Below, piece by piece: positions 4,898 to 33,614 of a stretch of DNA of 64,000 bases. The notes beneath the pieces were generated by a model, which had not been told where the DNA came from, did not search any database, and saw only the letters and a list, made by a program, of their open reading frames with translations. Each line of letters begins with the position of its first letter. Position 1 is the first letter of the stretch. Both the position numbers and the translations under genes were made by a program. The DNA comes from Desulfovibrionales bacterium. Lineage in GTDB: Bacteria; Desulfobacterota; QYQD01. The stretch lies in the NCBI GenBank assembly GCA_028715605.1, contig JAQURM010000001.1:124001-188000 (forward strand). The letters are read 5' to 3'.

Positions 4898-4917
4898 AAA
4901 ATTCCCTCCATATTTTC

Positions 4918-5022: not shown

Positions 5023-5075
5023 CCCCGAGCTGTGCGCGCCGTAGATGAGTGATTGAATAAGCTTATTAAAATCTT

Positions 5076-5142: not shown

Positions 5143-5170
5143 CTCGACCGGCCCGTTAGGGAAACTTTGG

Positions 5171-5575
5171 CTACTGTCTTACTGTGGATCCCAAGCCCGA
5201 CAGGACTGCCTTCGCGTCATATGTGCGGGGAACATCCGCAGGCCGTGAGCCCTTGAACATCTTGACTACCGCCGTTCGCGTAGTAAAGCCCTTCCCGTAT
5301 GTCGGGTGCCATTCCGTGTCTGTGTCGCGTTCAGTGAGCATAAACCAGTCGTAGCCCCTCTGGATGGTGAGTTCCGCCGCTCGGAGGAGTAAGAAGTTTT
5401 CGATAGTGCCGATGTCCGTGTATGCATTTCCCTCGAAACCCACTCGGTAGGTCGAGTCATCGATGGGCGTGTCGAAGTACCCGCCGGTAAATCCCTTCGG
5501 CTGGTAGGTGGAAGCACAGCCAACTAATAGTGTGGCGAGAAGCGTGGCAGAAAAAGTTTTGCGCAATAAATTCAT
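5171..5575 (-). CDS. Small outer-membrane-type lipoprotein, CC0125/CC1285-like
   Basis: A 134-residue protein with a lipoprotein signal: MNLLRKTFSATLLATLLVGC, where LVGC is a lipobox and Cys20 would be lipidated after SPase II cleavage. The mature part contains YRVGFEGNAYTDIGTIENF and LLLRAAELTIQRGYDWF, which resemble the CC0125/CC1285 lipoprotein family, of unknown function. The residue after Cys is Ala, consistent with outer-membrane sorting. The start has an AGGGAG-type ribosome site. The family assignment is from memory of the motif and is moderately certain; the lipoprotein nature is clear. Confidence 0.75.
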   Translation of the reverse strand: MNLLRKTFSATLLATLLVGCASTYQPKGFTGGYFDTPIDDSTYRVGFEGNAYTDIGTIENFLLLRAAELTIQRGYDWFMLTERDTDTEWHPTYGKGFTTRTAVVKMFKGSRPADVPRTYDAKAVLSGLGSTVRQ

Positions 5576-5750
5576 ACAATCTCCCTAACTTATATATTAA
5601 GTAGACGCTACTTTTTTCGTCTGCACTGAATACGAGAGGTATCGTATAGAAATCTGCCAAAAAACGCAACAGGATAACATTGCAATGAAACATTGGGCAG
5701 ATAAGGCCTGTGACGTACCGAAAAAGTCCGTCCTATTCCACGGAGTCCGG

Positions 5751-6707: not shown

Positions 6708-6740
6708 CTTCAGCCATTATGTTGTCAAGTTTTTAACACC

Positions 6741-6760
6741 TAACGAGTCTGTAGAAAAAG
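6741..6760. repeat. Single arm of a small inverted-repeat element
   Basis: TAACGAGTCTGTAGAAAAAG is identical over 20 bases to 26631-26650, where it is the left arm of a complete element with a matching right arm. Here only one arm is recognisable, so this is a solo or decayed copy. The rest of 6708-6880 holds no gene that I can see. Confidence 0.6.
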
Positions 6761-6885
6761 GTCAAAATTAAAGGATTCTAATGCGCCGGCGGCTGATGCT
6801 GCCGTTATACAAATGAATCAGATTATATATTGTTTACAACAATCTACAAGCATATCAACAGATACTCATGCTATTTAACACGATA

Positions 6886-6914
6886 TTGACATAACCAGTA
6901 TTTTTGCATAAATT
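6886..6914 (+). promoter_or_regulatory. Promoter for the small membrane-peptide gene
   Basis: A perfect TTGACA (6886-6891) and TAAATT (6909-6914) are separated by exactly 17 bases. The expected start near 6921 leaves a short leader with a strong AAGGAGGTG ribosome site at 6937-6945. The combination supports expression of the ORF at 6952. Confidence 0.6.
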
Positions 6915-19216: not shown

Positions 19217-19301
19217 CGACAGGGTAATGAAGTTGTGCTGAAACCAAGCCCGTCTTTGGGTATCCTTTCTCCTCTACTGAGGATTTTCTTCCAAGTCAAA
19301 T

Positions 19302-19472
19302 GATGAATTCGTAAAAAAGCCTTTTCACCGCTGAGTACGCAGAGCCCGCAGAGAAAAACTTTAAACCGTTCGGCTGGCTCACGGTCATGAACCGGGTCGA
19401 ATGACTGTTCAATATGTTATCTCGGCGTTCTCGGCGACCCCTGCGGTAATTTTGACTTTTTACGAGGTCATC
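19302..19472. repeat. MITE-like element with about 33-base imperfect inverted ends
   Basis: The left end GATGAATTCGTAAAAAAGCC and the reverse complement of the right end GATGACCTCGTAAAAAGTCA align well and continue through ACCGC(T/A)GAG-like sequence. The centre shows further decayed palindromic matches (CTCGGCG against CGCAGAG). No transposase frame is present, so this is a non-autonomous or structural element. It occupies part of the 643-base gap between the M23 gene and the HD-NACHT gene. Confidence 0.55.
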
Positions 19473-19563
19473 AAATAACTGACGCAAAAAGAGGCGCTTT
19501 CGTTTGCATATCCGGGGCAGGGCCACGTCAAAGTCAACCCCAGCGAATACCTAAAATCCCCCT

Positions 19564-19618
19564 AAATCCCCCTTTACCAAAGGGGGATTTCTCAATTCCT
19601 CCCTTTGGAAAAGGGAGG
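19564..19618. repeat. Two consecutive strong hairpins (intergenic palindromes)
   Basis: AAATCCCCCTTT-ACC-AAAGGGGGATTT (19564-19590) is a perfect 12-base stem. It is followed by CCTCCCTTT-GGAA-AAGGGAGG (19598-19618). This is a common dispersed palindrome type in environmental bacteria; a role in ending transcription from the M23 gene is possible but the long distance makes it uncertain. Confidence 0.6.
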
Positions 19619-19710
19619 TCAGGAGGGATTTTTAACATAGAGAAATCATTCCACTAAATCAGCACGATAATGTTTACTTTGACGTTCCCGTGTATCCGGG
19701 GTCAAATCTC

Positions 19711-19741
19711 TTGACGGTCAAGATTATCTTTGTGGTATAAT
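19711..19741 (+). promoter_or_regulatory. Candidate promoter of the HD-NACHT-FGE gene
   Basis: TTGACG (19711-19716) and a consensus TATAAT (19736-19741) lie upstream of the DGR target gene. The 19-base spacer is longer than ideal. The start would give a leader of about 110 bases before the ATG at 19860. Confidence 0.45.
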
Positions 19742-19830
19742 TGCGCGACTGTGGGACCTTCCTCACCCATTTGTCTATAGCAAATTTTTTTACCGGCTCC
19801 CCTATCATCATCCGTTGATAACAGCCCCAT

Positions 19831-19846
19831 GCTCAGGAGTCTGAGC
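19831..19846 (+). promoter_or_regulatory. Leader hairpin abutting the ribosome site of the HD-NACHT-FGE gene
   Basis: GCTCAG-GAGT-CTGAGC is a perfect six-base stem with a four-base loop. It ends immediately before the AGGGAGG ribosome site (19847-19853) of the ATG at 19860. A stem at this place could limit ribosome access, but no ligand or protein site is recognised. Confidence 0.4.
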
Positions 19847-19859
19847 AGGGAGGTCTTGG

Positions 19860-22511
19860 ATGAACCTTCATGACATGCTCAAAGGGAAAAGCGTTGCAGA
19901 CGGGAAGATAGATCTGCATAAGCACATCTCCGAGGTAAAGGACCACGCGGCAAGATGGCTTGAAGGGATCCCCAAGAATGCTATAGATCATTCCCGAAGA
20001 CTGGAAGATTACTTAAATCGCTTGATCCCGGACGAGTTTAAGAAACGGCTCAAGCCTGCTGAGATATTCATCCTCCTGTATGCTGTCTATCTCCACGACA
20101 TCGGCTACCGGAACAAAGATGGCACCATAGAATCCCGAGACCATCCCCTGCGGAGCAAGCAGTACATACTAGAGAACCCAGACAAATACCTTTTTGACCG
20201 ATTTCCCTGCATGAATCCGGGAGAGCCGCCCTTGGCAGCTCAGGCAGTAGCGGAGGTCTGCTATGGCCATGCATCTGAATCACTGTGCCGTCTTGAGGAT
20301 ATCCAATATGACTTTGGAGATGCCTGTCTGTGCCAGGAACCCATAAATCTCCGGCGGATTGCGGCGCTTCTCAGACTTGCCGATGAAATGGACCAAGCTT
20401 ATGTACGCCTGGGACCTTCTTTCTTTAGAAAACATATCTCCTTGGTTGACATCGGTCAGGGTATTGTAAGATGGTATTGGCAAGGTGACGAAGGCGTTGG
20501 GAAAGTCCTTCATGAACAGGCAGACAAGATTAACGAAGTCCTTGAACCGGTGAACAGATGGCTCTCTGAATGGGAACTTCCAAAAACGACCGTTGTTTTA
20601 GACCCACGGGTGAAGAAGCCACCGCCACCGCCTCCACCTCCAGGGCCTGAAGACTACGAGAAATTCATCCCTAAACACTATATTCCTCCAAGATGCCAGG
20701 ATGAAGAGGGAAAAGATAAAGGACTTCTTCACAGCTATGTGCAGGACTGGCTGAACAACCTCGGCCGTAAGGTCCTAGTCGTGCTTGGTGACTTCGGGAT
20801 TGGAAAGACGTCTTTCTGTTACAAATTTGCCTCTGATCTCACTGGCTCCCGTGCCCCGGTCTTGATCGAACTCCGGACGATGCGCGAGAAAAAGAATCTC
20901 CACTGGCAAGAACTGATCAAGCGGGAGATAGACGACCGGAGGCCCTCGTCTGAAGATATTCTATTGATCCTGGACGGATTTGACGAAGTCTCCCTGAGAT
21001 TTGATAAGGAACAGGTCCTCAGAGAAATCGAGAGTCTCTCGAAGAGTACGAGAGACTTCGCCAAGGTGATTTTCACCAGCCGGACCCAGTTCTTCCGGGA
21101 CGTGCAGGAAGAACGGGAGATGTTATTTCGTGAGCCGGGCAGACCTTCCAGGGGCCCCGTACCCCTACCTTACCCGGAGAGATTTGAGAGGATATATATC
21201 TCTCCCTTCAGCGATGTAGATATCAAGGCCTACTTGGAACTTGAACTCGGTAAAAAGGGGGCCTCGCACTTCTGGAGCAACGTTATAGAGAAGGTTTTTG
21301 ATCTGAAGGACCTGGCCAAGCGTCCTATTCTCCTGGAACTCATAGCCAGGCACTCTGAAGATATCAGGCAGATAAAGGGCGCAGTTACCGCCGGCAAGGT
21401 CTATGGAGCCGTTACCGAGGCCTGGAGAAGGCGGGAGGGAGAGCGTGCGCCGGAAAACATCATGCTTTTCATGGAGGAGCTGGCCTACCGGATGTTTACC
21501 AGGCAAGAAAAACAGCTCCATTTCAGGACTCTAAGGGAAGCTATCGACTCATACTTTGACGATAGTACTAAGAGAAAGCTCAAGTTGTCTCTCGACAACC
21601 TGGATTACCAGATACGCACATCTGCGTTTCTCAAACGCAATGACGCCGAGGGTTACTACGCCTTTGCCCACCGCTCTTTTGTTGAATATTTTGTGGCCAG
21701 GAAGCTATCGAGGGAGATACCGGAAAACAAGGCCCAGGAGATAGAGATCACCGATGAGATAGCCCTTTTTGTCTCGGAACTCATAGACCCTTCGGTCTAC
21801 GAAAGGGTTGAATCACCGCAAGGCGCTGAGGTTCCCGAGGACATGGTCTACATCCCGCCCGGGCAGTTTATCATGGGCCAAGGAGATAACATCCGGATAA
21901 GGAGCCTGGAGAAGGGATTTCTTATAGATAAGCATCCCGTAACTAACGCCCAATTCTGCGCCTTCCTCAACGAGCGCGGCAATCAGAGTGAAGGCGGCGT
22001 GGAGTGGATTAACCTGGCAGGGGGTTATGAGAAGGAGAGATGCCGGGTAAAGAAGGACGGCGATCGCTTTGAAGTGGAGCCTGGCTATGAAGAGTATCCA
22101 GTTATCTACGTGACCTGGTACGGGGCGAGGGCCTATGCAAAGTGGGCTGGAAAGAGATTACCGGCAGAGGAAGAATGGGAGAAGGCGGCCAGGGGAATAG
22201 ATGGGCGCGCTTACCCGTGGGGAGACGAGTTTGATAAGGAAAAATGCAACACAGCGGAGTCAGGTATCTTGGAAACGACACCGGTTGGCAAATATCCGGA
22301 CGGCGCAAGCCCTTATGGTTGCCTGGATATGGCTGGAAATGTCTGGGAATGGACTGATAGCTGGTACGATGAAGAAAATGACTTAAAGGTGCTGCGGGGC
22401 GGTTCGTGGCTCATCAATTGGGGCGATGCCCGGTGCGCTTATCGCGACGGGGCCTCCCAGTGTATGGGGACGGCATCATCGGGTTTCGTTGCGCCAGGAC
22501 CTTATAAATAA
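19860..22511 (+). CDS. HD (HD-CE)-NACHT-FGE protein, DGR target 1
   Basis: An 883-residue protein in three modules. Residues about 20-230 form an HD hydrolase-like domain: DHSRRLEDYL, LHDIGYRNKDG, CYGHASES and LRLADEMDQAY supply His, His-Asp, His and Asp, as in the HD-CE group found in conflict systems. A run of eight prolines (about 254) links to a NACHT NTPase: Walker A GDFGIGKTS at 310-318, Walker B LLILDGFDEV at about 368-377, then IFTSRTQFFRD. Residues 662-883 are an FGE-sulfatase (C-type-lectin-like) domain with GNVWEWTDSWYDE. Its last 40 codons are the variable repeat VR1. A one-base deletion there shifts the final frame: the end reads SSGFVAPGPYK instead of the expected [10 protein letters not shown]. 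Likely cytoplasmic NTP-driven sensor/effector; the ligand is unknown. Confidence 0.92.
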   Translation: MNLHDMLKGKSVADGKIDLHKHISEVKDHAARWLEGIPKNAIDHSRRLEDYLNRLIPDEFKKRLKPAEIFILLYAVYLHDIGYRNKDGTIESRDHPLRSKQYILENPDKYLFDRFPCMNPGEPPLAAQAVAEVCYGHASESLCRLEDIQYDFGDACLCQEPINLRRIAALLRLADEMDQAYVRLGPSFFRKHISLVDIGQGIVRWYWQGDEGVGKVLHEQADKINEVLEPVNRWLSEWELPKTTVVLDPRVKKPPPPPPPPGPEDYEKFIPKHYIPPRCQDEEGKDKGLLHSYVQDWLNNLGRKVLVVLGDFGIGKTSFCYKFASDLTGSRAPVLIELRTMREKKNLHWQELIKREIDDRRPSSEDILLILDGFDEVSLRFDKEQVLREIESLSKSTRDFAKVIFTSRTQFFRDVQEEREMLFREPGRPSRGPVPLPYPERFERIYISPFSDVDIKAYLELELGKKGASHFWSNVIEKVFDLKDLAKRPILLELIARHSEDIRQIKGAVTAGKVYGAVTEAWRRREGERAPENIMLFMEELAYRMFTRQEKQLHFRTLREAIDSYFDDSTKRKLKLSLDNLDYQIRTSAFLKRNDAEGYYAFAHRSFVEYFVARKLSREIPENKAQEIEITDEIALFVSELIDPSVYERVESPQGAEVPEDMVYIPPGQFIMGQGDNIRIRSLEKGFLIDKHPVTNAQFCAFLNERGNQSEGGVEWINLAGGYEKERCRVKKDGDRFEVEPGYEEYPVIYVTWYGARAYAKWAGKRLPAEEEWEKAARGIDGRAYPWGDEFDKEKCNTAESGILETTPVGKYPDGASPYGCLDMAGNVWEWTDSWYDEENDLKVLRGGSWLINWGDARCAYRDGASQCMGTASSGFVAPGPYK
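22385..22500 (+). other. DGR variable repeat VR1
   Basis: Aligned by eye with the template repeat at 23964-24080. The first 25 and last 30 or so bases are identical. In between I count 20 substitutions and one single-base deletion, and every one is at a template adenine; there are no changes at C, G or T. This is the signature of adenine-specific mutagenic retrohoming. The deletion (near 22455, template AACCCA against TCCCA here) puts the downstream part out of frame. Confidence 0.93.
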
Positions 22512-22540
22512 CCCTTTGCCCTTTTTCTCTTTTACCCTTT

Positions 22541-22555
22541 ACCGCCGGAGGCGGT
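22541..22555 (+). promoter_or_regulatory. Post-VR hairpin of DGR target 1
   Basis: ACCGCC-GGA-GGCGGT forms a perfect six-base GC-rich stem, 40 bases after VR1. The same sequence stands at the matching place after VR2 (26458-26472) and is absent after the template. In known DGRs a hairpin just downstream of the variable repeat helps target recognition; this is the obvious candidate here. Confidence 0.6.
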
Positions 22556-22570
22556 CGATATTTTTTAGCC

Positions 22571-22921
22571 ATGCCGCAGGAAGTTGACGCCATAACCAAG
22601 CTCTATGACTTCATCCTCTGGATGATTCCCAAGCTTGAAAAATATCCCAGGAGCCAGAAGTTTCTCCTGGCGGATAGGATAGAGAACCTGATGCTCGACA
22701 CCCTCGAACTCCTAATCGATGCGGCATACTCCAAGAAGAAAGGGGAATTACTACGGTCAGCGAACTTGGAGCTTGAGAAGCTGAGGTATCTGGTGCGGCT
22801 GTCTAAAGACCTCAAGCTCCTCAACGTCAAAGAATATGAGTTTTCCTCCCGCTCCATTAATGAGATAGGGACTTCCATCGGCGGCTGGCTGAAATACACA
22901 CGACGTGAAAACCTACAATAG
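22571..22921 (+). CDS. avd: Avd-type DGR accessory protein
   Basis: A 116-residue helical protein matching the accessory variability determinant family: a four-helix bundle that forms a pentameric, positively charged barrel and binds the reverse transcriptase and template RNA. Family features seen are TKLYDFILWMIPKLEKYPRS, FLLADRIENLMLDTLELLID and LEKLRYLVRLSKDLKLL, with many Lys/Arg. It starts 15 bases after the post-VR hairpin and overlaps the reverse transcriptase start by 17 bases, so both are likely translated from one mRNA. No good ribosome site precedes the ATG. A truncated copy with two stop codons follows VR2 at 26489. Confidence 0.92.
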   Translation: MPQEVDAITKLYDFILWMIPKLEKYPRSQKFLLADRIENLMLDTLELLIDAAYSKKKGELLRSANLELEKLRYLVRLSKDLKLLNVKEYEFSSRSINEIGTSIGGWLKYTRRENLQ

Positions 22922-23999
22922 CCTGTTCGACAGAGTCGTTTCCTTTGAGAATCTCCTGCTTGCGGCGCAAAAGGCCCAGAAGGGGAAACGCTTCAAAGAG
23001 TCCACCGCCCTTTTCAATCTCGAACTGGAAAAAGAACTCGTCCGGCTTCAGAAAGAACTGGCGGAGATGACATACAGGCACAGTCCGTACCACGATTTCA
23101 TCGTACACGATCCAAAACAGCGGGTTATCAGCGCTGCGCCTTACCGCGACCGGGTCGTGCATCATGCGCTCTGCAACGTCATAGAACCGCTGTTCGATAA
23201 GGCGTTCATTTTCGACTCTTACGCTTGCAGGGTGGCAAAGGGTACTCATGCGGCTGTGGACAGATATACCGAGTTCGCGCGGAAGAACAAGTACGTCCTT
23301 AAGTGCGACATTCAGAAATACTTCCAGAGTGTTGATCACGACATACTGTTTGAAAAGATTTCGCGGAAGATAAGATGCGGAAAGACGCTGTGGCTGATAA
23401 GAGAAATAATCGGTTCGCGATCTGACAAAGGCCACATGTTTTATTTCCCGGGTGATGACCTTTTCACTCCCGGTGCCAGGCGAAAAGGTATCCCCATAGG
23501 GAACCTTACCAGTCAGTTTTTTGCCAATGTCTACCTCAATGACTTTGACCACTTTGTGAAGGAAGAGCTGAGATGTAAGTACTACATTCGCTATGTCGAT
23601 GATTTTGTGGTGTTCGAGAACGTGAAAGGGTTCCTCCATGAGGTCAGGGCGCGCATGGAGAGACATCTTGAATCATTGAGGCTAAGGCTCCACGAAAGAA
23701 AATGTCGAGTCTACCAGACCCGTGATGGGGTCAGTTTTCTTGGATACAGAATCTTTCCCACTCACAGGCTGTTGAAGAAAAATAATGTCCTAAGAACGAA
23801 GAGAAGGCTGAAGAGGCTGTCCGGCCAATACAGGGACGGGGATGTCACTCTTGAAAGGATAAATCAGAGCATACGAAGCTGGATAGGCCACGCAAGCCAT
23901 GCCGACACCTATCTGTTAAGGTCTCGGGTGTTGGGGGGCGTGGTTTTTCAGAGGGGTGAGGCCAAAGGTGCTGCGGGGCGGTTCGTGGAACAACAATAG
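22905..23999 (+). CDS. DGR reverse transcriptase
   Basis: A 364-residue retroelement RT that copies the template RNA with adenine-directed errors. RT motifs are in order: [20 protein letters not shown], the first catalytic Asp in [31 protein letters not shown] (I198-Q204; the IGxxxSQ form is diagnostic of the DGR clade) and the active site YVDD at 230-233, then a thumb region with [11 protein letters not shown]. The start is GTG inside avd. The stop codon lies inside the template repeat, so the last eleven or so residues ([11 protein letters not shown]) are read from TR sequence. Size fits DGR RTs. No maturase or endonuclease domain is present. Confidence 0.96.
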
Positions 24000-24080
24000 G
24001 AACAATGCCCGGTGCGCTAATCGCAACAGGAACAACCCAGAGAATAGGAACAACAACATCGGGTTTCGTTGCGCCAGGAC
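23964..24080 (+). other. DGR template repeat (TR)
   Basis: A 117-base repeat of VR1 at the 3' end of the RT gene. Its core is full of AAC, AAT and AGG codons (read in the VR frame it would give [18 protein letters not shown]), the arrangement that lets adenine mutagenesis change many residues while avoiding most stop codons. It is bordered by the invariant CTGCGGGGCGGTTCGTGG and the GC-rich end CGTTGCGCCAGGAC, the likely initiation-of-mutagenic-homology region. The same TR also matches VR2, with drift. Confidence 0.94.
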
Positions 24081-24105
24081 TTGTATAAATCTAATGATGC
24101 CGGAG

Positions 24106-24129
24106 CTCCGTCTTTCACGGAAGACGGAG
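24106..24129 (+). ncRNA. Hairpin in the DGR template-RNA spacer
   Basis: CTCCGTCTT-TCACGG-AAGACGGAG is a perfect nine-base stem starting 26 bases after TR. In studied DGRs the region downstream of TR is part of the structured RNA that primes reverse transcription, so this hairpin is a likely part of it. The remainder of the gap to 24355 shows no gene; some shorter pairings exist. Confidence 0.45.
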
Positions 24130-24355
24130 GGGTGTATCATATAAGTCCAGGCCTCGCTCCTGCGTTGGCTTGCCAAAAGCCAACCGAAACATCAACCCTC
24201 TCGGCCCGGGCTGGTAGCTTTCAAGCGAACGTTCGGGCGGAGAATTCAGAAATGACAGGCCGGGTCTATAAAATAGTGGCAAAGAGGCTTCACGTTTCAG
24301 GCGGCAGGCACGGCTGGGATAAGGAGAACACGACAAACTGACCCGAGGGGGCATC

Positions 24356-26425
24356 ATGGTTAAGCAACTCAACATCAGATCGGATATCTACTGCGAAAAG
24401 GATCTATTGGGATTTGACAAGTACGTCGACACTCTTAGCGGCATGATTGAAGACACGGACTTCAAGACGCCCTTCTGTATAGGTATATTCGGAAACTGGG
24501 GAAGCGGAAAGACGAGTTTCATGCACCTTCTTGAGAATAGGCTTAAGGAGGGCGAAGGCAGCCCCCGTGTCATCCCCGTATGGTTCAACCCTTGGAGATA
24601 TGAGAAAGAAGAACATTTGATCATTCCATTTTTAAAAACCATCCAACACGAGATAGAGAAATACATTAAAAGTCAAAAGGGAACGAAGACAAGGCTTGCC
24701 GAAGGTTTGAAACGTGCCGCCACAAAGGTGGGCGAGGTGTCGGCAGCCATTGCCTATGGCATAAAACCGGAGTGCAAGTTGGGCGGCTTTGGCATCGAAT
24801 TCGATATTGCCAAAATGGCGGACCGGGAAGAGGATCTCGCCAAAAGGAGACTGGAAAAAGCAAGAAAGATATCAGATAAGCTGTCGTCCATCTACTACGA
24901 TTCCTTGACCGAATTAAAGAGCGCCATTGATGAAAAGAGTTTTCGGTTGGCGGTTTTCGTCGATGATCTCGACCGGTGCCTTCCGGAAAAGGCGGTTGAA
25001 CTCTTTGAGGCGATGAAACTGTTTCTTGATATCGAGGGCTGTATTTTCATTGTAGGCGTGGCGAAAGATATCGTTAAAAAGGGAATTTCTTACCGGTACC
25101 GGTTCCTTGAATCTAAGGAGAAGGAACCCGGGGGCGCTGGCATATCATCGGAAGACTACCTGGACAAGATGATACAGCTTCCCCTTGAACTTCCACCGAT
25201 CGAGCCCGGAAGGAAGAGGATGTTCATTGAATCGTTAATAGGTGATGCCGGGGGTTTCAGGGAGCACGCGGATATCATCGAAATCGGCGTGGGAGATAAC
25301 CCGAGGTCCCTGAAGCGATTCATCAACCTCCTCGCATTTACGGTAAGGCTGGCGGAGACGGTTAAGGCGAGCATTCTTGAGGACAGAGTGGATCCGAAGG
25401 AGAGCGACGACCACAAGGAACTCCTCTGGAAATACTTCATCCCGCTTTTTTATACAAAATGGACGATCATCGCCTTTCGTTTCCCAAAGGTTCATTCGGA
25501 TATCAAAGGGAATCCGGAGAGATTGGTCGAGTTGCAGAAGGCGGCCAGAGGGGAGGCAGAGAAGGCTGCAGGTCTCGAAGAGAGCGGAGAAAAGAAGAAA
25601 CCTGTTGAAGCAATAGATGACCAGCTGAAGAGAGTCCTTTTAAAAGGGGAACCCTTCCCGGCGGATGCATGGCTGATGGCGAGATTTGTCCACCTTACGG
25701 AAGCAACGCGTGTTACCGCCAAAGAAGAGGCATCTGCCGGGTACAGCCAGAGGTTTGAACCGGGCGACATGGTTTGGATTCCGAAAGGCAGCTTTTTCTA
25801 TGGCGATGAAAAACTCGGAAAGAACATAGAGTATGAGTACGTTATTGACGTATTCCCTGTTACCAATAAGCAATACAAAGCATTTCTTGATGACGAGAAA
25901 GAACATGAAGTTCCATACATAGAAGAGGATTGGGCCCAAAAGTATAAATGGGACAAGGAAAAGAGGTCCTATCCTGAAGGAAAGGGTGATCACCCGGTAG
26001 TGCTCGTCAGCTATCAGGATGCGCTGGATTTTTGCAGGTGGCGGTCTCAAAAGGAGGGAAAGAACCATAGACTGCCCACTGAAGAGGAATGGGAGAAGGC
26101 CGCCAGGGGCATAGACGGGCGGGTCTATCCCTGGGGGAACGAATTTAATAAGGCGAAGTGCAATACCTATGAATCGGAAATTGGCGGGACCACACCCGTT
26201 GGCAAATATCCGGACAGCGCCAGTCCTTACGGTTGTCGTGATATGGCAGGCAATGTATGGGAATGGACTGATAGCTGGTACGATGAAGGGCAAGACGCGA
26301 AAGTGCTGCGGGGCGGTTCATGGACCCGCTATGGGGTCGACGCACGGTGTGCTCTCCGTGGCAGGTACTTCCCGGGCGACAGGGGCCTCGGCACCGGTTT
26401 CCGGTGCGCCAGGGATTTAGAATAA
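24356..26425 (+). CDS. KAP-family P-loop ATPase fused to FGE domain, DGR target 2
   Basis: A 689-residue protein. The N-terminal KAP NTPase has Walker A GNWGSGKTS at 46-54, the family motif VWFNPWRYEKEEHL and Walker B VFVDDLDRCLPEKAVELFEA near 200-215, then DNPRSLKRFINLLAFTVRLA. KAP ATPases are often membrane-associated and occur in defence and signalling. The family's usual transmembrane insert is not obvious here. Residues 472-689 form an FGE-sulfatase domain like that of target 1, ending in VR2 and GTGFRCARDLE, in frame. A GAGGGG ribosome site precedes the ATG. It lies 275 bases after TR and is followed by the same hairpin and an avd remnant, which suggests that its FGE end arose by duplication of target 1 and was joined to a different NTPase. 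Confidence 0.9.
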   Translation: MVKQLNIRSDIYCEKDLLGFDKYVDTLSGMIEDTDFKTPFCIGIFGNWGSGKTSFMHLLENRLKEGEGSPRVIPVWFNPWRYEKEEHLIIPFLKTIQHEIEKYIKSQKGTKTRLAEGLKRAATKVGEVSAAIAYGIKPECKLGGFGIEFDIAKMADREEDLAKRRLEKARKISDKLSSIYYDSLTELKSAIDEKSFRLAVFVDDLDRCLPEKAVELFEAMKLFLDIEGCIFIVGVAKDIVKKGISYRYRFLESKEKEPGGAGISSEDYLDKMIQLPLELPPIEPGRKRMFIESLIGDAGGFREHADIIEIGVGDNPRSLKRFINLLAFTVRLAETVKASILEDRVDPKESDDHKELLWKYFIPLFYTKWTIIAFRFPKVHSDIKGNPERLVELQKAARGEAEKAAGLEESGEKKKPVEAIDDQLKRVLLKGEPFPADAWLMARFVHLTEATRVTAKEEASAGYSQRFEPGDMVWIPKGSFFYGDEKLGKNIEYEYVIDVFPVTNKQYKAFLDDEKEHEVPYIEEDWAQKYKWDKEKRSYPEGKGDHPVVLVSYQDALDFCRWRSQKEGKNHRLPTEEEWEKAARGIDGRVYPWGNEFNKAKCNTYESEIGGTTPVGKYPDSASPYGCRDMAGNVWEWTDSWYDEGQDAKVLRGGSWTRYGVDARCALRGRYFPGDRGLGTGFRCARDLE
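26300..26415 (+). other. DGR variable repeat VR2 (drifted)
   Basis: Alignable without gaps to TR. About 24 template adenines are changed, and about 13 other positions also differ, nearly all at third codon positions. Adenine-directed change therefore built this sequence, after which silent drift accumulated. The frame is intact (SWTRYGVDARCALRGRYF at its core). Whether the present TR can still write to it is unknown. Confidence 0.85.
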
Positions 26426-26457
26426 TTACTCTTTGCACTTTAACCCTTTTACCCTTT

Positions 26458-26472
26458 ACCGCCGGAGGCGGT
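26458..26472 (+). promoter_or_regulatory. Post-VR hairpin of DGR target 2
   Basis: ACCGCC-GGA-GGCGGT, identical to 22541-22555 and at nearly the same distance from its variable repeat. The preceding TTTACCCTTT is also shared. Confidence 0.6.
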
Positions 26473-26488
26473 CGACAATTATTGAGTA

Positions 26489-26600
26489 GTGCCGTAACAA
26501 GTTGATGCCATAACCAAGGTCTATGACCTTATCCTCTGGATGATTCCCAAGCTTGAAAAGTACCCCAGAAGTCAGTAAGTTCTCCTGGCGGGCGGGATGC
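26489..26600 (+). pseudogene. Decayed avd copy
   Basis: Translated in the avd frame it reads QVDAITKVYDLILWMIPKLE and KYPRSQ, nearly the same as residues 3-29 of Avd, but with a stop at codon 3 and another after KYPRSQ, and the homology fades after about 112 bases. It stands in the same place relative to VR2 as avd does to VR1, so it is a relic of a duplication of the target-hairpin-avd segment. Confidence 0.88.
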
Positions 26601-26630
26601 GCTTAACCCAACTTCCACAGTTATGAGAGA

Positions 26631-26738
26631 TAACGAGTCTGTAGAAAAAGCCCGATTCCCACTATGTTCCGACTCGTAACCATTTGATTTTATTAATAGC
26701 AAATTTGCGAAAAGAGACTTTTCCTACAGACTCAACGT
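26631..26738. repeat. Small inverted-repeat element (MITE-like)
   Basis: TAACGAGTCTGTAGAAAAAG at the left and CTTTTCCTACAGACTCAACG at the right are inverted with two or three mismatches, enclosing about 65 bases with no gene. The left arm recurs exactly at 6741-6760. Confidence 0.6.
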
Positions 26739-26821
26739 TCGGCCTGAGTCGCTACGCCTCGGGAGCTGCTCTTTTGAACCCTGCTGTCTCGCCGGTCGAC
26801 TCCAACCTGCGTACAGCCTTG

Positions 26822-27331
26822 TTAACGCTTTTCTTGAAGCCAAGGTTGATAACGGAGCAACTCCACGAGCAGGGAGTACACCTTATCCCTATTTTGTCTT
26901 AATTGTTTTCGGTAAGCCAAATCCCTTGATTCTAGTTCGGCACGGGATTCCAGCGTGAGCGATCCATCTTCTTTTGTTATAGCTGTCCAGTGGGGGCACC
27001 TGGTCAGCATGCCGATTTGTCCTGCATAGAATCTGCCCATGTTCAGTTCCGCAACAAAACTGACTAGTTCGCTCGCATCATGACGTAGTGTATCCACGGA
27101 AGCGTCATCTTCGATAGAATCCAGGAACTGCATTCGGCAAAATAGTGGATGGAACTGGGAAGAAAGGATCGAGGGGTCCTTATATTGCCTAAAAAGTTGC
27201 AGCTTCTTGCTGTCCATCTTGCTTGTCGGGCTGTGTAAGTCGGTTAGGTGGCAGTTGGGGCAAAGTGGTAGCAGGTTCAGAATGTCATTGTTGTCGGGGT
27301 TCTCGTCTATATGATGGACTTGTGGACTACT
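26822..27331 (-). pseudogene. HNH endonuclease gene, 5' end removed by IS630 insertion
   Basis: An open frame continues without stop from the insertion-sequence edge at 27331 to the stop at 26822. It begins SSPQVHHIDENPDNNDILNL, then LPLCPNCHLTDLHS: the HH-N-H arrangement and the CPxCH pair of an HNH nuclease with its zinc-binding half. The C-terminal 131 residues (from KMDSKKLQLFRQYKDPSI) are helical. The N-terminal part is missing: on the other side of the insertion sequence the frame can be followed for only a few codons (FRGAP) before IS3-derived DNA. An internal ATG at 27217 would make a product without the HNH motif. A non-functional remnant is most likely. Confidence 0.8.
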
Positions 27332-28471
27332 AGTGTAGTGTCTCAGTAATATATTTACAATTTCTATTTATTGTGTTATAGTTGGTGTCATGTGGAAACC
27401 AACCGATGCTTTGCCGATGACAATGGAACAGAGAAGAACGCTTGAGGGGTGGATCCGAGCTGGAACGACGCCGCAGAGAATGGTTTTGCGATCCAAGATA
27501 TGTCTGCGTGCAGCCGACGGACGATCCAATAACGCCATTGCCAAAGAGTTGGGCACGTCTCGTCCAACGGTTCTGCTTTGGCGAGAGCGATTCCTCAAAC
27601 AGGGGGTTTTGGGATTGTCTGAAGATGCACCCCATGGTCCGAGCGCTCAATGTTTGGCCCCCCAGAAAGTTAAAGCGATTGTGGAGACGACTCTCCAGAC
27701 GGCTCCTCCCGGCGCGACTCACTGGAGTACCCGAATGATGGCCGAAAAAATGGGCGTGAGCCACTCCAGCGTCGCACGAATTTGGAATGCCCATGGGTTG
27801 CAGCCCCATCGAACCAAGGGGTTCAAGTTGTCCAAGGACAAACGATTTGTTGAAAAGCTGACGGACGTTGTCGGTGTCTATTTGAATCCTCCGGATAAGG
27901 CCCTCGTACTGTGTGTCGACGAAAAGTCGCGAATCCAAGCGCTGGACCGAACCCAACCCGGGTTGCCGATGAAAAAGGGACGATGTGGGACAATGACGCA
28001 CGATTATAAACGTAACGGGACCACCTGCCTTTTTGCAGCACTCAATGTCCTTGAAGGCACCGTTATTGGCACCTGTTATCCGCTTCATCGCAACGAGGAG
28101 TTTCTAAAGTTCTTGCGCAAGATTGATCGTGAAACTCCTCGGAAACTGGATCTCCACTTGATCCTGGACAATTATGGCACTCACAATCATCCTAATGTGA
28201 AAACATGGCTCCAACATCATCCGCGATTCCACTTGCATTTCACACCGACCAGTTCTTCTTGGCTGAACCTCATAGAACGATGGTTTGGTGAAATCACGCG
28301 CAAAAGGATCCGCCGAGGCGTCTTCAAGAGTGTTCCAGAGTTGGTTGCTGCTATCAAAGAGTTCATTCGATTAAACAATCAAAACCCCAAACCTTTTGTA
28401 TGGACCAAGAAAGTTGAAGAGATCCTGGAGAAGGTTAATCATTGTAAAGCCGTTATTGAGACACTACACTA
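27331..28471 (+). mobile_element. Intact IS630-family insertion sequence
   Basis: About 1.14 kb with perfect 15-base terminal inverted repeats: TAGTGTAGTGTCTCA at 27331-27345 and TGAGACACTACACTA at 28457-28471. The terminal TA at both ends is the duplicated target dinucleotide typical of IS630/Tc1-mariner. It has split the HNH gene. The single transposase frame is uninterrupted, so the element may be mobile. Confidence 0.93.
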
Positions 28472-28472
28472 G
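27390..28472 (+). CDS. IS630-family transposase
   Basis: A 360-residue DDE transposase. The N-terminal helix-turn-helix reads IAKELGTSRPTVLLWRERF and is followed by a second DNA-binding helix region (MMAEKMGVSHSSVARIW). The catalytic triad lies in LCVDEKSRIQALDR, LILDNYGTHNHP and SSSWLNLIERWFGEI, with D-D-E spacing typical for IS630. The last codons run through the right inverted repeat, and the stop codon TAG is made from the terminal TA of the element plus the first flanking G. The insertion site therefore decides how the protein ends. Confidence 0.95.
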   Translation: MWKPTDALPMTMEQRRTLEGWIRAGTTPQRMVLRSKICLRAADGRSNNAIAKELGTSRPTVLLWRERFLKQGVLGLSEDAPHGPSAQCLAPQKVKAIVETTLQTAPPGATHWSTRMMAEKMGVSHSSVARIWNAHGLQPHRTKGFKLSKDKRFVEKLTDVVGVYLNPPDKALVLCVDEKSRIQALDRTQPGLPMKKGRCGTMTHDYKRNGTTCLFAALNVLEGTVIGTCYPLHRNEEFLKFLRKIDRETPRKLDLHLILDNYGTHNHPNVKTWLQHHPRFHLHFTPTSSSWLNLIERWFGEITRKRIRRGVFKSVPELVAAIKEFIRLNNQNPKPFVWTKKVEEILEKVNHCKAVIETLH

Positions 28473-28520
28473 GTGCACCGCGGAACTTGTCAATGAAAAT
28501 GAGACACCTCCATAAAGAAT

Positions 28521-29033
28521 TTAGTGTCGCAATGGATCACTATTTTCTGACGCCGGTTTATTGATCCAGACCGCCTCGGGCAAGGCCATCGGTTTTGGCA
28601 TCTTCCCCTTGAATCGCTCCGGATGTTTTGCAAAAGCATCATTTAGAACTACTTGACGCTCCCTGATAATTTGTTCAGTCTGTCCGTAATGGACATTTTC
28701 CGGGGTGAGGAATCCGATCCCGGAATGGTAATGCCCGGTATTGTACCAACCGAAAAATCCCTGGCAGAAGGACCTGCTGTCCTCGGCATACCCGAAGCGC
28801 TCCGGGAACTCCGGCCGGTATTTCAGGGTCTTGAACTGGGCTTCCGAATAGGGGTTGTCATTGCTCACATAAGGCCGGGAAAGGCTTTTGGTAATCCCCA
28901 GATCAGCAAGCAGGAAAGCAACCGTTTTTGAGGTCATACTGGGTCCCCGATCAGAATGGATGCTCAGTTGACTTGATTGAATTCCCTGTTTCTCGCAGGA
29001 CTGTTCGATCAGTTTCTTTGCCAGAGATGACGA
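28521..29033 (-). pseudogene. IS3-family transposase remnant (integrase core, C-terminal part)
   Basis: The frame is open from 29033 to a stop at 28521. It contains KKLIEQSCEKQGIQSSQLSI, HSDRGPSMTSKTVAFLLADL, SRPYVSNDNPYSEAQFKTLK and YHSGIGFLTPENVHYGQ: the second Asp, the catalytic Glu and the end of an rve/DDE integrase core. The first half with the first Asp and the helix-turn-helix OrfA is missing, so it cannot be active. The stretch 28472-28520 (with GGAGGTGTCTCATTTTCATT on the minus strand) looks like the right end of the element. Confidence 0.85.
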
Positions 29034-29365
29034 TTACATTGGCACAGAGGGCGCGCCGGTCTGCGCTGCGTACCGAACCAGACCCGGCTTCCTGCTAATA
29101 ACGATGCCCATTCCGACATTTTTGGGGGCCAACCCGTTTCGAAATCTTCCCTACCTATACTGTTTCATCTTGGAATATCGATCAATTCCTGATATAAAAT
29201 CAAACATCACAACTATACTGAGCCGATAAATTTCCAAATAATGGCTAGCGGTTCAGTTCAACAGGACTTTTTACGGTCGGCTTAGCGCTGTAAGAACTCT
29301 TATTCGTTATGCGTTTCTAAAATGTCCTGACTAACCTAATTTGTAATAGATAACGAAAAATAATA
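29034..29365. other. Intergenic stretch between IS remnants and the nucleotide operon
   Basis: No gene is recognisable. The base composition becomes AT-rich from about 29160, which marks the edge of the following island. Around 29245-29310 there are weakly attC-like words (GTTCAACAGGAC and TTCGTTATGCG), but they do not pair convincingly. The promoter of the next operon should lie here; I see no strong consensus, and the ATG at 29366 has no clear ribosome site. Confidence 0.4.
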
Positions 29366-30202
29366 ATGCATATCATCCATTTATCGGATCTACATTTTTG
29401 TACGGGCATCCCTCTTGCTATGGATGAGGATAGAGTAATTTCCGCTATCAAGAAAGCTGTTTCTGATACCTCTATCGATTGTCTTTATTTATGTATCACA
29501 GGAGACATTGTCCTTAAGGGAGATGTTAGGGCTTACACACTAGCAGAGTTTTTTCTGAAAAAATTATGTTCCGAAATAAAAATTAAAAAGGAGCATATAA
29601 TAATTTGTCCTGGTAATCACGATTTTGTAGTCAGTAAACAGAGTTTTGACGATTACAATAAATTCGTTTTCAGTTTAACACGCAATGACGCACTCATGCT
29701 GTCAAAGCACTCAATTTCGCCTTATTTTATTAATGAGTTATGTTTCCTGGTTGTAAATAGTACCTATCATTTAGATCACACTTATGGCCTCATAGAACTT
29801 AATAGATTGCAAGAAGTTATGGAAGGAATTGACAGCTGCTGTGATAAAATATTATGTTTGCACCATCACTTGTTGCCGACTGATGACTTTTCGTGTTTAA
29901 AGAATGCTTATAGTCTTTTAAATCTTTGCACCTCTACCGATATCAAATTAATATTGCATGGTCACAGACATATGAACTTGCATTTAACGGTTGGAAATTC
30001 CTCGTTATTGATATCGGGGAGCGGTTCATTGTTTCAGACTTCTCGACAAAGTGGTTATACAAATCAGTTCCAAAGTCTAATTATCGACAGAAATAATAGT
30101 AAGATTTATCAAAAAATATTCAGATACTTAATTGATAGTCATGATAAGAAAAATGTAGATGATTTTTACGTTGAAAGGTACGAATATGGCATATTGCGAT
30201 AA
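29366..30202 (+). CDS. Calcineurin-like metallophosphoesterase
   Basis: A 278-residue phosphoesterase, first gene of the AT-rich operon. Metal-binding motifs are all present: LSDLHF (Asp8, His10), ITGDIVLKGD, CPGNHDF, LHHHLLP and LHGHRHMN. It could be a nuclease, a cyclic-nucleotide or a nucleotide phosphatase; the substrate cannot be read from the motifs. There is no signal peptide, so it is cytoplasmic. Its end overlaps the start of the kinase-like gene by 17 bases. Low GC relative to the flanking core genes suggests acquisition by transfer. Confidence 0.88.
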   Translation: MHIIHLSDLHFCTGIPLAMDEDRVISAIKKAVSDTSIDCLYLCITGDIVLKGDVRAYTLAEFFLKKLCSEIKIKKEHIIICPGNHDFVVSKQSFDDYNKFVFSLTRNDALMLSKHSISPYFINELCFLVVNSTYHLDHTYGLIELNRLQEVMEGIDSCCDKILCLHHHLLPTDDFSCLKNAYSLLNLCTSTDIKLILHGHRHMNLHLTVGNSSLLISGSGSLFQTSRQSGYTNQFQSLIIDRNNSKIYQKIFRYLIDSHDKKNVDDFYVERYEYGILR

Positions 30203-30839
30203 AGGTTTTTTTATTGTTTTCGAAGGTATTGATGGTTCTGGTTCTTCCACGCAAGCCAGATTACTATATGAATATTTACTTTCAAATTCATTAGTTGGTA
30301 AAAAAGCTGTTCTCACAGCTGAACCGACATTTGGGCCTGTAGGCCAAGTAATTAAATCTATTATGCAGGGAAGGCTGGTCACCTGCATGGATAACAAAAT
30401 GGATGATCGATTATTGGCTTATCTTTTTGCAGCTGATCGGCATGATCACTTATACAACGCTGTCAATGGGATTGCAAAACGGCTAAACGAACAATATGCT
30501 GTAATCTCTACCAGATACTATTTATCCTCTTTAGCTTATCATGTATCCGATAATGCTGATTATCGGTTTGTGTATTCATTGAATAAGAATTTTCCAAATC
30601 CAAACATAATCTTCTACTTAGAATGTCCAGTTGACGTTGCCATTGAGAGACTTAAAAAAAGAGATCATCTTGAAAAATATGAGAATAAAGAAAAGTTATC
30701 AATGGTTGAGCGTAACTATCAAGAGGCAATAAGCCATTACAAGGATGTATTGTATAAAATAGATGGGGCTAAATCCATCAAAGATATCCACAGCAAAATA
30801 GTACGCATAGTTCATAAGTTGCTAGAGGAAAAGAAATGA
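30186..30839 (+). CDS. Thymidylate-kinase-like P-loop protein
   Basis: A 217-residue TMK-fold protein. The P-loop is FEGIDGSGSSTQARLL (residues 12-27), where the invariant Walker A Lys is Ser20; a Thr or Ser here is seen in a subset of TMK-like proteins, so activity is not excluded. Later elements are TAEPTFGPVGQVIK, DRLLAYLFAADRHDH (DR motif region), VISTRYYLSSLAYH and the lid-like RLKKRDHLEKYENKE. The ATG at 30186 has GAAAGGT upstream and overlaps the phosphoesterase gene; a longer frame from 30159 lacks such a site. The stop overlaps the next ATG as ATGA. A role in phosphorylating a dNMP or modified nucleotide is inferred from context. Confidence 0.85.
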   Translation: MAYCDKGFFIVFEGIDGSGSSTQARLLYEYLLSNSLVGKKAVLTAEPTFGPVGQVIKSIMQGRLVTCMDNKMDDRLLAYLFAADRHDHLYNAVNGIAKRLNEQYAVISTRYYLSSLAYHVSDNADYRFVYSLNKNFPNPNIIFYLECPVDVAIERLKKRDHLEKYENKEKLSMVERNYQEAISHYKDVLYKIDGAKSIKDIHSKIVRIVHKLLEEKK

Positions 30840-31726
30840 ATATGCTCTCAGACTTTATAAAGAGCGCTGAAGAATCTTGTAGTAACGGTCGAGTTTTTAA
30901 CCTCATTCTTCAGGGGGAATTTCCTATTGCAGAAATTGATTCAACATTTGTTCGGGTCCACACTGAAAAAGCCGTTCAATGGCAGGCACGAGAACGACCT
31001 GAATCATTGATAATTAATCACGGTGAATATATACATAAATATGGCGATGCCATTGAGTATGTTATTGACGAACTAAAGCGAAAACCAGACTCAAACAGAG
31101 CTGTAATCAGTTTGATTAATTGTAAGGATATATTGCATAGCGGGGATCGTCCTATACCTTCATTTATGATTTTTCAGTTTAGTTTTAAATCTCATCAATG
31201 CATAGTATGCACAGCATATTTCAGGGCCTTAGAAGTCTCCAAATTTTTACCATCAAATATTGCCGAAATTTGCTTAATTCTAAGGGAAATAAAAGAGAAA
31301 ATTCCATCAATTGAGCAAGTAATGATAACAATTCATGCCTTTAGCGCATATTCAAATAAGGATTTTTATTGTCTAGAGGTATCAGAGATCGACTTAGATA
31401 AGAATAAAGGTGCTATTGCTATCGCTGTGGCTAAACAGGATTACGTTACTATCTCCAGCCTGCTTCAGTCCAAGCTTAGGGATGAGTCGTATGTAAATAC
31501 CAATGGCATTACAGAGCTGCAGAATGCTTTACGCCTATGTTCCGACAATTATGACAGGAGGATAATTAGTAATATAGGGGCTTGCCTCTTAAACATGAAG
31601 CGACTCCAGCGAATTAGAAGATCCTCCTCCCACTCACATGAAGTTTTAAGTCTGAATCAGAAGATACAAACCATTTTGAGCGATACCATAAAAATCTTGC
31701 ACGAGACAATAAGAGGACGATCATGA
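30836..31726 (+). CDS. Thymidylate-synthase-fold protein lacking the catalytic Cys
   Basis: A 296-residue protein. The middle aligns by eye with ThyA: IEYVIDELKRKPDSNRAVIS matches the conserved NxLxxxPxSRR region, RPIPSFMIFQFSF matches the PCHxxxQF active-site strand, AYFRALEVSKFLPSNI matches the QRSxDxxLGxPxNI segment (Arg130 kept) and IHAFSAYSNKD matches GDxHxYxNH. At the catalytic position PCH reads PSF, so the nucleophilic Cys is Ser109. Classical dUMP methylation is therefore unlikely. The C-terminal 100 residues form a helical extension not found in ThyA. It is coupled by ATGA overlaps to the genes on both sides. Possible roles are binding or altered chemistry on a pyrimidine nucleotide. 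Confidence 0.8.
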   Translation: MNMLSDFIKSAEESCSNGRVFNLILQGEFPIAEIDSTFVRVHTEKAVQWQARERPESLIINHGEYIHKYGDAIEYVIDELKRKPDSNRAVISLINCKDILHSGDRPIPSFMIFQFSFKSHQCIVCTAYFRALEVSKFLPSNIAEICLILREIKEKIPSIEQVMITIHAFSAYSNKDFYCLEVSEIDLDKNKGAIAIAVAKQDYVTISSLLQSKLRDESYVNTNGITELQNALRLCSDNYDRRIISNIGACLLNMKRLQRIRRSSSHSHEVLSLNQKIQTILSDTIKILHETIRGRS

Positions 31727-32061
31727 CATTAGCAGAGATCATGAAGCTTCAAAAACTATTTGATGAAAAACATAAAGGTGCCTTTTCGTGGCACCAAAAG
31801 ATCAATTCTGAAAATATTCATATATTAGAGTATCTGATTATTGGCCTTATTGGCGAGGTCGGAGAATTAGCTAATATTATAAAAAAAATACGGCGCGGAG
31901 ATTTAACTTATTCTGAGCATAAGGATGATATTGCTGAAGAGATTGTAGACGTATTTATTTACTTATTAAAGATGGCATACCAAAATGATATTGACATTGA
32001 ACAAGAATTTCTAAGAAAATTAGAAAAAAATAAAAGAAGATTTAAAATGTTTGAGCTGTGA
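31723..32061 (+). CDS. MazG-like NTP pyrophosphohydrolase
   Basis: A 112-residue all-alpha protein of the MazG/dUTPase-like superfamily. The Mg2+-binding motif ExxE...ExxD appears as GEVGELAN (Glu45, Glu48) and AEEIVDVFIYL (Glu73, Asp76). Such enzymes split (d)NTPs to monophosphate and pyrophosphate and cleanse or supply nucleotide pools. It overlaps the preceding gene by ATGA, and the radical SAM gene begins within or eight bases after its end. Confidence 0.92.
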   Translation: MTLAEIMKLQKLFDEKHKGAFSWHQKINSENIHILEYLIIGLIGEVGELANIIKKIRRGDLTYSEHKDDIAEEIVDVFIYLLKMAYQNDIDIEQEFLRKLEKNKRRFKMFEL

Positions 32062-32068
32062 CCTTGTA

Positions 32069-32983
32069 ATGATAAAAGAAATTTCTATTGATCTCACATA
32101 TAAGTGTCCATTTCGATGTATCCATTGTTCGAACGAGCCGTCTTGTTTGCACGAACAGTTGTCCTTTGAAAATTATAGCTTGATGCTTAAGTATTTCATA
32201 GAGCATCATAGCCTGAGAATCGTAGAATTCGGAGGCGGGGAGGCTTTCTGCCATCCTGATTTTATTAAAATGGCTAATTTAGTTCCTGAAGGGATAAAAA
32301 AAATTATATATACTTCCGGCTGCCTCGGACTTAAAGGCCATGATTTTTTAACCTTGCAAGATACTGCTCTTCTTAAGTCATTAGGTTTTGAACAAATTAG
32401 TATTTCTGTTTACAGTCATCTTTCCGCTATTCATAACCAAATAATGAAGTTAGATAACGCTTATAAAAGAGTCATGTTTTCTCTTGAGAATTTGCAAAAA
32501 GTGGGACTTAGAATTTGCATTCATATTGTTGTGACAAAATTAAATATTGATCACCTTGGAGAAACTGTAGCTTCTCTTTATAAACGCTTTAATATTTCTA
32601 ATTATCGCCTTTTGCGTTTTGTGCCACAAGGGATCGGGTATTTAAATCGAAAAAAACTCGAAGTCGATAATGGGCTTGTTGACCTAAAGAATTTTTCCAA
32701 GAATATGATGCAACAATTTAACGAGATAAATATTTCTTATGCTGGGTATCCTGCAATTATTAAATGCCGACCTCATAAAGAGATTAAAGATAAATGCTCG
32801 GCTGGTATTGAGTTTGTTCATATTCTTCCTAATTCAAAAATAATTCCTTGTCCTTCTTTTAAATGGCTGAAATCTGATTGTAGATATTCTCTATCATTGC
32901 TGGATATTAATAGGTTGGGGCTTTGGAGGGCAACTAAAAGAAATGACTGTTGGCAAAAGGAAGTTCGGTCATCTAACAGGTGA
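32069..32983 (+). CDS. Radical SAM enzyme, unknown substrate
   Basis: About 304 residues. The [4Fe-4S] motif CPFRCIHC (Cys13, Cys17, Cys20 from the chosen ATG) lies in DLTYKCPFRCIHCSNEPSC. Next come FGGGEAFCHPDF (the GGE SAM-binding motif), SISVYSH and, near the C terminus, scattered Cys residues (KCRPHKEIKDKCSAG, IPCPSF) that resemble a short SPASM/twitch cluster site. It lacks the CNYxCxFCF pattern of viperins. A TTG at 32051 overlapping mazG is an alternative start. Given the TS-like, kinase-like and MazG-like partners, a nucleotide or a small molecule attached to it is a likelier substrate than a peptide, but SPASM-type proteins usually act on peptides, so both remain open. Confidence 0.88.
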   Translation: MIKEISIDLTYKCPFRCIHCSNEPSCLHEQLSFENYSLMLKYFIEHHSLRIVEFGGGEAFCHPDFIKMANLVPEGIKKIIYTSGCLGLKGHDFLTLQDTALLKSLGFEQISISVYSHLSAIHNQIMKLDNAYKRVMFSLENLQKVGLRICIHIVVTKLNIDHLGETVASLYKRFNISNYRLLRFVPQGIGYLNRKKLEVDNGLVDLKNFSKNMMQQFNEINISYAGYPAIIKCRPHKEIKDKCSAGIEFVHILPNSKIIPCPSFKWLKSDCRYSLSLLDINRLGLWRATKRNDCWQKEVRSSNR

Positions 32984-32996
32984 AGGAGTAATTACA

Positions 32997-33422
32997 ATGA
33001 ATATACAAAAATTGATTGATAAAATTTGGAAAGACCCTTCTATGAGTGATGATGAAATCATATCAGCCATTCAGAAGCTCCCATCAAACCAATTAGCATT
33101 ATTGCATGGATTATATCAACATATTAAAAATGATACGGTCGACGCTTGGCTGTGTCGTGTGGATACACATCATGACTATACAATCAACAGCTTTACTAAA
33201 GCATCACTCGATGAGCGTAACTTTTTTAGAGATATTATCATTTGCTTCTATCTGTCTGAGTATAGATTGGATGGCCTTTTGTATTGGCCCGGTGAAATGA
33301 GGGATAGACAATTGAAAGATATGATAAGGAGTTATGGTCTAAACAAGGATGTTCTTCTTACAATTCATCAAAATTGGGTTTGTATTAAGAAAATGGTTGG
33401 TCGTGTAAAATCTTTTGTGTAA
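32997..33422 (+). CDS. Unknown 141-residue protein ending the nucleotide operon
   Basis: The ATG at 32997 has a GAAGGAG site that overlaps the stop of the radical SAM gene. The product is soluble and looks helical, beginning NIQKLIDKIWKDPSMSDDEI and containing HHDYTINSFTKASLDERNFF and YWPGEMRDRQLKDM. I recognise no domain. Same strand, spacing and AT-rich composition as the five genes before it, so it is probably part of the same system. Confidence 0.7.
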   Translation: MNIQKLIDKIWKDPSMSDDEIISAIQKLPSNQLALLHGLYQHIKNDTVDAWLCRVDTHHDYTINSFTKASLDERNFFRDIIICFYLSEYRLDGLLYWPGEMRDRQLKDMIRSYGLNKDVLLTIHQNWVCIKKMVGRVKSFV

Positions 33423-33431
33423 ATTCTGAAA

Positions 33432-33488
33432 TCCCGCGAAAGCGGGAATCCAGAGAAAAAAGACTGGATTCCGGGTCAAGCCCGGAAT
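33432..33488. terminator. Two hairpins between convergent operons
   Basis: TCCCGC-GAAA-GCGGGA (33432-33447) and ATTCCGGG-TCAAG-CCCGGAAT (33468-33488) are perfect stems. They lie just after the nucleotide operon, which converges on the trehalose gene at 33615. The sequence is also a common dispersed palindrome. The run AGAAAAAAG between the stems may serve as the U-tract for the minus-strand transcript, but this is a weak terminator by eye. Confidence 0.45.
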
Positions 33489-33614
33489 GACAATAATACA
33501 TGAAGATAGGACATTAATATTACAGGTATCAATAAATCCTTCGTATGTTGTAAGCAATGCTCAAGCTTGCTAACAATCTGAAATAAAAGCTAGAGATATT
33601 TGACTATCAGGGTG

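Follow-up and report, generated by a model that had tools for sequence, protein, structure and literature searches.

Does one template serve two different signalling ATPases? The question is raised by a candidate diversity-generating retroelement (DGR) of a Desulfovibrionales bacterium (assembly GCA_028715605.1), found in a stretch of 64,000 nucleotides of contig JAQURM010000001.1 (positions 124,001 to 188,000, forward strand) that is called the window here. The original prediction read the locus as a single template repeat (TR) facing an HD-CE-NACHT protein and a KAP protein, each ending in a variable FGE sensor.

Organization of the locus

The predicted order of target 1, hairpin, avd, reverse transcriptase (RT), TR, target 2, hairpin and avd relic holds, as do the coordinates of the parts (Table 1). 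Pfam profiles identify HD-CE (E = 7e-21), NACHT (E = 1e-8) and FGE-sulfatase (E = 8e-48) domains in target 1 and KAP_NTPase (E = 5e-40) and FGE-sulfatase (E = 1e-48) domains in target 2. The avd product is recognized as NF033474/bAvd with 114.6 bits against a cut-off of 80. The IGNLTSQ and YVDD motifs of the RT lie at residues 198 and 230, and the tree places this RT in the group of DGR RTs that have TR/VR pairs at their loci.

Table 1. Features of the DGR locus in window coordinates
Feature	Position	Strand	Description	Basis
Target 1, HD-CE + NACHT + FGE/C-type-lectin sensor	19860..22511	+	883 aa as read	Pfam; sister-species orthologue L137:4098-6725
Target 1, HD-CE domain	~19983-20507
Target 1, NACHT domain	~20772-21113
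Target 1, FGE/C-type-lectin sensor	~21837-22469
VR1	22385..22500	+	Predicted current homing target	Comparison with TR
Hairpin 3' of target 1	22541..22555	+	ACCGCC-GGA-GGCGGT, CTTTTACCCTTT tract before it
avd accessory gene	22571..22921	+	116 aa	NF033474 E = 2e-33; PF22296 E = 6e-21
DGR-type RT	22905..23999	+	364 aa; 3' end overlaps TR	IGNLTSQ and YVDD intact
TR	23964..24080	+	117 nt, 37 adenines
Target 2, KAP NTPase + FGE/C-type-lectin sensor	24356..26425	+	689 aa	Pfam
Target 2, KAP NTPase domain	~24413-25351
Target 2, FGE/C-type-lectin sensor	~25763-26413
VR2	26299..26415	+	Variable repeat, apparently orphaned	Comparisons with TR and sister species
Hairpin 3' of target 2	26458..26472	+	ACCGCC-GGA-GGCGGT with CTTTTACCCTTT tract
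avd 5' relic	26478..26598	+	82% identical to avd, broken by stop codons

The FGE domain of target 2 was modelled with a pLDDT of 86. The model matches formylglycine-generating-enzyme structures and superimposes on TvpA (2y3c), the solved DGR variable protein of Treponema denticola, with a TM score of 0.74. By analogy, the FGE face is predicted to bind antigen. Pfam and the fold model together give two targets, each an NTPase with a C-terminal C-type-lectin (CLec) domain and one variable repeat (VR).

Template, VR1 and the end of target 1

VR1 was compared with TR. VR1 departs from TR by 20 substitutions among the 37 template adenines and by one 1-nt deletion, likewise at a template adenine, whereas the remaining 80 positions are unchanged (p = 9e-13). 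The 20 variable codons of TR give a capacity of about 10^19.5 protein variants. An RT with YVDD and IGxxxSQ motifs, an adenine-confined TR/VR1 pair and Avd are all found, and by these sequence tests the locus is a genuine DGR; the original prediction was right in this and in giving it two NTPase-FGE targets. The RT is predicted to be active.

The 1-nt deletion of VR1 relative to TR, located in a G run (a stretch reading GGGG), had escaped the original prediction together with its consequence for target 1. The deletion shifts the frame of the last ~19 residues, and the protein ends in ...SSGFVAPGPYK, not in the ...IGFRCARTL of its kin; the orthologue in the sister species is in frame with the C-terminus GFRCVREL. 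The deletion may have arisen by erroneous retrohoming, or the consensus of the metagenome assembly may be wrong at a mixed homopolymeric site; the target 1 allele of this assembly may be dead or the product of such a consensus error.

Relatives in the RT clade

The RT tree joins the window RT (WIN) and L032-L037 in a clade with support of 100/96. The other members come from Ca. Desantisbacteria (L032), Nitrospirota (L033), Verrucomicrobiota (L034), Aminicenantes (L035), the cultured Dethiosulfatarculus sandiegensis (L036) and a bacterium (L037). One NACHT-FGE and one KAP-FGE target are present in each of L032, L033, L035 and L036. L037 has two NACHT-FGE targets, and L034 has KAP-FGE alone among the targets on its contig, with a truncated avd after it. 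At its N-terminus the NACHT protein is not constant, with HD-CE, TCAD9, DUF4062, metallophosphatase and methyltransferase versions.

Relatives with two VRs have 0 non-adenine differences from their own TR in the VR core of both targets. Near the 3' end, both VRs of L032, L033 and L039 have a G where TR has a T, as expected if the homing ends of TR and VR are distinct. One template facing two different ATPases, as had been predicted for the window, is therefore seen in L032, L033, L035 and L036, with a perfect match of the VR cores outside adenines. The KAP gene of L032 has an N-terminal frameshift, so the KAP partner may be decaying outside the genus of the window too.

Two origins were considered and rejected. 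DGRs of the same phylum (G034, G369, G221 and G125), as sources of the pair, have other FGE proteins or unrelated proteins as targets. Against a viral origin, the RTs of viral relatives are more distant (≤46% identity).

The 3' hairpin and pyrimidine tract

The 3' ends of both targets carry an identical 6-bp GC hairpin with the 3-nt loop GGA. In BPP-1, homing needs a hairpin downstream of VR to be efficient (Guo et al. 2011, PMC3240598). A CTTTTAC-type pyrimidine tract lies 3' of the VRs in 6/7 clade loci, near-identical after both targets of a locus, and is followed by a GC hairpin in 4/7. The hairpin was rejected as a universal mark; it is absent from L033, L035 and L036, while the tract persists. 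The CTTTTAC tract recurs in the spacers 3' of VR of L032-L037, L039, L047, L063 and L139, also in those that lack the hairpin, and may be a cis element.

VR2 and the present template

VR2 differs from TR at 26/37 adenines and at 14/80 other positions, leaving 66/80 non-adenine positions common to both. Differences are thus not confined to adenines, and the idea that a single TR of the locus serves both targets is not supported for the present genome. The non-adenine mismatches are mostly at codon position 3 (12/14, hypergeometric p = 0.001). They are spread along the length of VR2 and include the 3' homing end, where the last 25 nt hold four (positions 95, 99, 102 and 105, 0-based) in addition to the last base (116).

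The 97.5%-complete genome has no copy of the repeat besides TR, VR1 and VR2, and a second template for VR2 was found neither there nor in four congeners or the loci searched. Retrohoming rewrites non-adenine letters to those of the template. A VR2 with non-adenine differences from TR has therefore gone long without overwriting by the present TR. As far as sequence can tell, VR2 is orphaned from this template, and matching is now limited to target 1. The use of one template for two different ATPases is real and recurrent in the clade and has probably broken down in the window.

Comparison with the sister species

The class-wide search gave five genomes, all of this genus, from a thinly sampled class. 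One congener (G002, locus L137) has an intact target 1 of 875 aa adjoining KAP-FGE at the same site, and its avd, RT and TR are reduced to a ~62-nt avd relic between the targets. The KAP gene of G002 also has ~500 bp of inserted IS-like sequence that includes fragments resembling transposases (L137:2935-3437).

Outside the VR, the KAP gene is 90.8% identical between the window and G002. Inside VR2, 22/37 template-adenine positions differ versus 8/80 others (p = 4e-8). The adenine-site divergence of 59% compares with a neutral third-position rate of 16% in the same gene (p = 3e-9). The dN/dS ratio relative to the sister species is 1.8 inside VR2 and 0.13-0.21 in the rest of KAP-FGE, which indicates that the KAP protein is still under purifying selection outside VR2. 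Excess variation at template adenines across strains, which the original prediction implied, is found for the KAP VR in this one sister species. The adenine-site excess in an otherwise conserved gene argues that VR2 was hypermutated at template adenines in the genus, and past adenine diversification of the KAP target is supported. The difference between the species could have been sorted from an already diverse ancestral population, with a mutagenic template as the writer either way.

A rival reading ascribes the variability of VR2 between species to plain positive selection on surface loops, or to looser constraint there, and not to DGR activity. In its favor, nearly all template adenines occupy the first or second position of the variable codons. 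It is nevertheless very improbable, because divergence at template adenines is far above the neutral rate and the non-adenine sites of the same VR2 diverge at 10%. The FGE cassettes are mosaic: the first cassette of the window (FGE1) is 83.5% identical to FGE2 of the sister species and 69% to its FGE1, and sequence exchange between the cassettes of the two targets has evidently occurred. Such exchange could explain some of the VR2 difference, against which stands the 90% identity of the two species at the non-adenine sites of VR2.

Ten non-adenine letters common to the VR2 of both species (TR positions 21, 42, 45, 57, 60, 78, 81, 95, 99 and 102, 0-based) differ from the present TR; being shared by the sister species, they are old. 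They bear on whether the present template still serves both targets, needing a match only at the 3' end and hairpin, with VR2 merely not lately rewritten. The hairpin and tract of VR2 are intact, the shared non-adenine positions are many, and in relatives both targets are served by one TR. Continued service is nonetheless improbable, given the age of these letters, the 14 differences that reach into the 3' end and last base, and the complete VR-core agreement of both targets in the two-target relatives.

An orphaned VR2 leaves two candidates for its earlier writer. The VR2 letters at positions 42, 57 and 81 are the usual letters of related TRs in the clade, which suggests an older state of the template. 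The avd relic behind VR2 is also compatible with a second cassette that has disappeared. As a sub-case of the preferred reading, VR2 would have been written by a second complete DGR cassette with its own avd, RT and TR, deleted since. This is possible, though less likely than not. The relic directly follows the VR2 hairpin, the ten shared letters depart from the present TR, and the relic with its spacer resembles the copy after VR1 in the sister species (82.9%). However, copying can also take in just the 3' end of a target and the beginning of avd, with RT and TR left out, a truncated avd also follows KAP-FGE in L034, and the agreement of positions 42, 57 and 81 with most other clade TRs means that the window TR itself may have drifted.

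Genomic surroundings

The DGR lies in a variable island with an M23 peptidase gene on one side and a trehalose-synthesis gene on the other. The entire stretch from 19290 to 33593 of the window is missing from congener G001, whose flanks are present and match at ~90%. G001 lacks the system and has elsewhere (C26, ~4000-6900) a 1481-aa open frame with three FGE-like stretches, a possible multi-VR target. Directly downstream of the DGR is a complete IS630-like element (27330-28472) with a DDE_3 transposase and 32-nt terminal inverted repeats, followed by the remains of an integrase-core (rve_3) transposase (28521-28937). A calcineurin-like phosphoesterase and then a thymidylate kinase and a thymidylate-synthase-like gene occupy 29366-31723 of the same island.

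Discussion

The locus is likely a cellular DGR that has two NTPase sensors as targets, one of them now beyond the reach of the template: the KAP sensor was diversified earlier and has since been orphaned. The RT and Avd would make a cDNA of the TR RNA in which adenine positions receive random bases. This cDNA would take the place of VR1 in the FGE domain, of C-type-lectin fold, of the HD-CE/NACHT protein, and the 3' identity of TR and VR together with the hairpin downstream would guide it there. The adjoining KAP-FGE gene would have been diversified likewise earlier in the genus, either by an ancestral version of the present template or by a second cassette, since lost, that left the avd relic. 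Overwriting of VR2 would then have ceased, with the protein kept by purifying selection. The products would be two intracellular recognition receptors. Each would bind a variable ligand, probably of phage origin, through its FGE face and activate an effector, of HD type or a partner protein, through its NACHT or KAP ATPase. We infer the RT activity, the ligand, the ATPase signalling and the antiphage role; the two sensor genes probably belong to a defence system.

In Kaur et al. 2021 (PMC8195603), DGRs are linked with STAND-FGS and KAP-FGS proteins, and individual organisms have several NTPase types. Doré et al. 2024 (PMC10907252) describe clade 5D DGRs, commonly with two STAND targets and some with KAP, as putative antigen sensors. 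The novelty first claimed for one template with two signalling ATPases is weak, being largely anticipated by these two studies. The systems of Kaur et al. also resemble the window in their NTPase-FGS fusions, KAP in place of STAND, and a DGR RT with a four-helix accessory protein. The description deals with architectures, and a shared template, a cross-species adenine test and orphaning are not found in its accessible part. Clade 5D loci share with the window two single-VR targets, each an NTPase with a C-terminal CLec/FGE VR, some with KAP, a likeness of target architecture; our own RT tree gives the clade of WIN and L032-L037 only. Clade 5D loci likewise have a central NACHT/nSTAND1 NTPase, and disruption and loss of DGR parts occur there too. 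The window differs in the HD-CE effector on one target, the pairing of NACHT with KAP and the orphaned KAP VR. NACHT, KAP and FGE were not found in the main text of Roux et al. 2021.

The DGR of the Bordetella phage BPP-1 and TvpA have in common with the window an RT, Avd, an adenine-biased TR/VR pair, a 3' hairpin (PMC3240598) and a variable FGE/CLec fold. The proteins diversified there are a tail protein of the phage and a surface lipoprotein, whereas the targets in the window are intracellular NTPases, and the hairpin loop is GGA (3 nt) in the window but GRNA (4 nt) in the BPP-1-type system. Target 2 shares a KAP P-loop domain with the antiphage ATPases QatA (E = 3e-40) and PifA (profile match). 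Identity with QatA was rejected, as the score is 139 bits against a cut-off of 600 and an FGE sensor is fused instead; no Qat partner genes (QatBCD) were seen beside target 2, where the neighbors are Avd/RT and the IS element. What is added here is the HD-CE version, the recurrent NACHT and KAP pairing on one template, and cross-species evidence for a KAP sensor that was diversified and then orphaned.

A more speculative and rather unlikely extension is that NACHT-FGE and KAP-FGE form a fixed functional couple, with one template supplying both sensor faces in a DGR clade that has spread horizontally. They could be a paired receptor, in which one protein is the sensor and the other its co-receptor, or in which a single ligand repertoire feeds two effector outputs. 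In this genus the couple would be undergoing stepwise retirement, with KAP frozen at a useful specificity.

The question at stake is whether the DGRs of cells generate an immune repertoire of an anticipatory kind. A recurrent NACHT and KAP pair on one template across several phyla is a defined test system for it, and one locus with a template-matched and an orphaned VR is a natural comparison. The window and G002 as a pair indicate how receptors can be frozen after loss of the template or RT.
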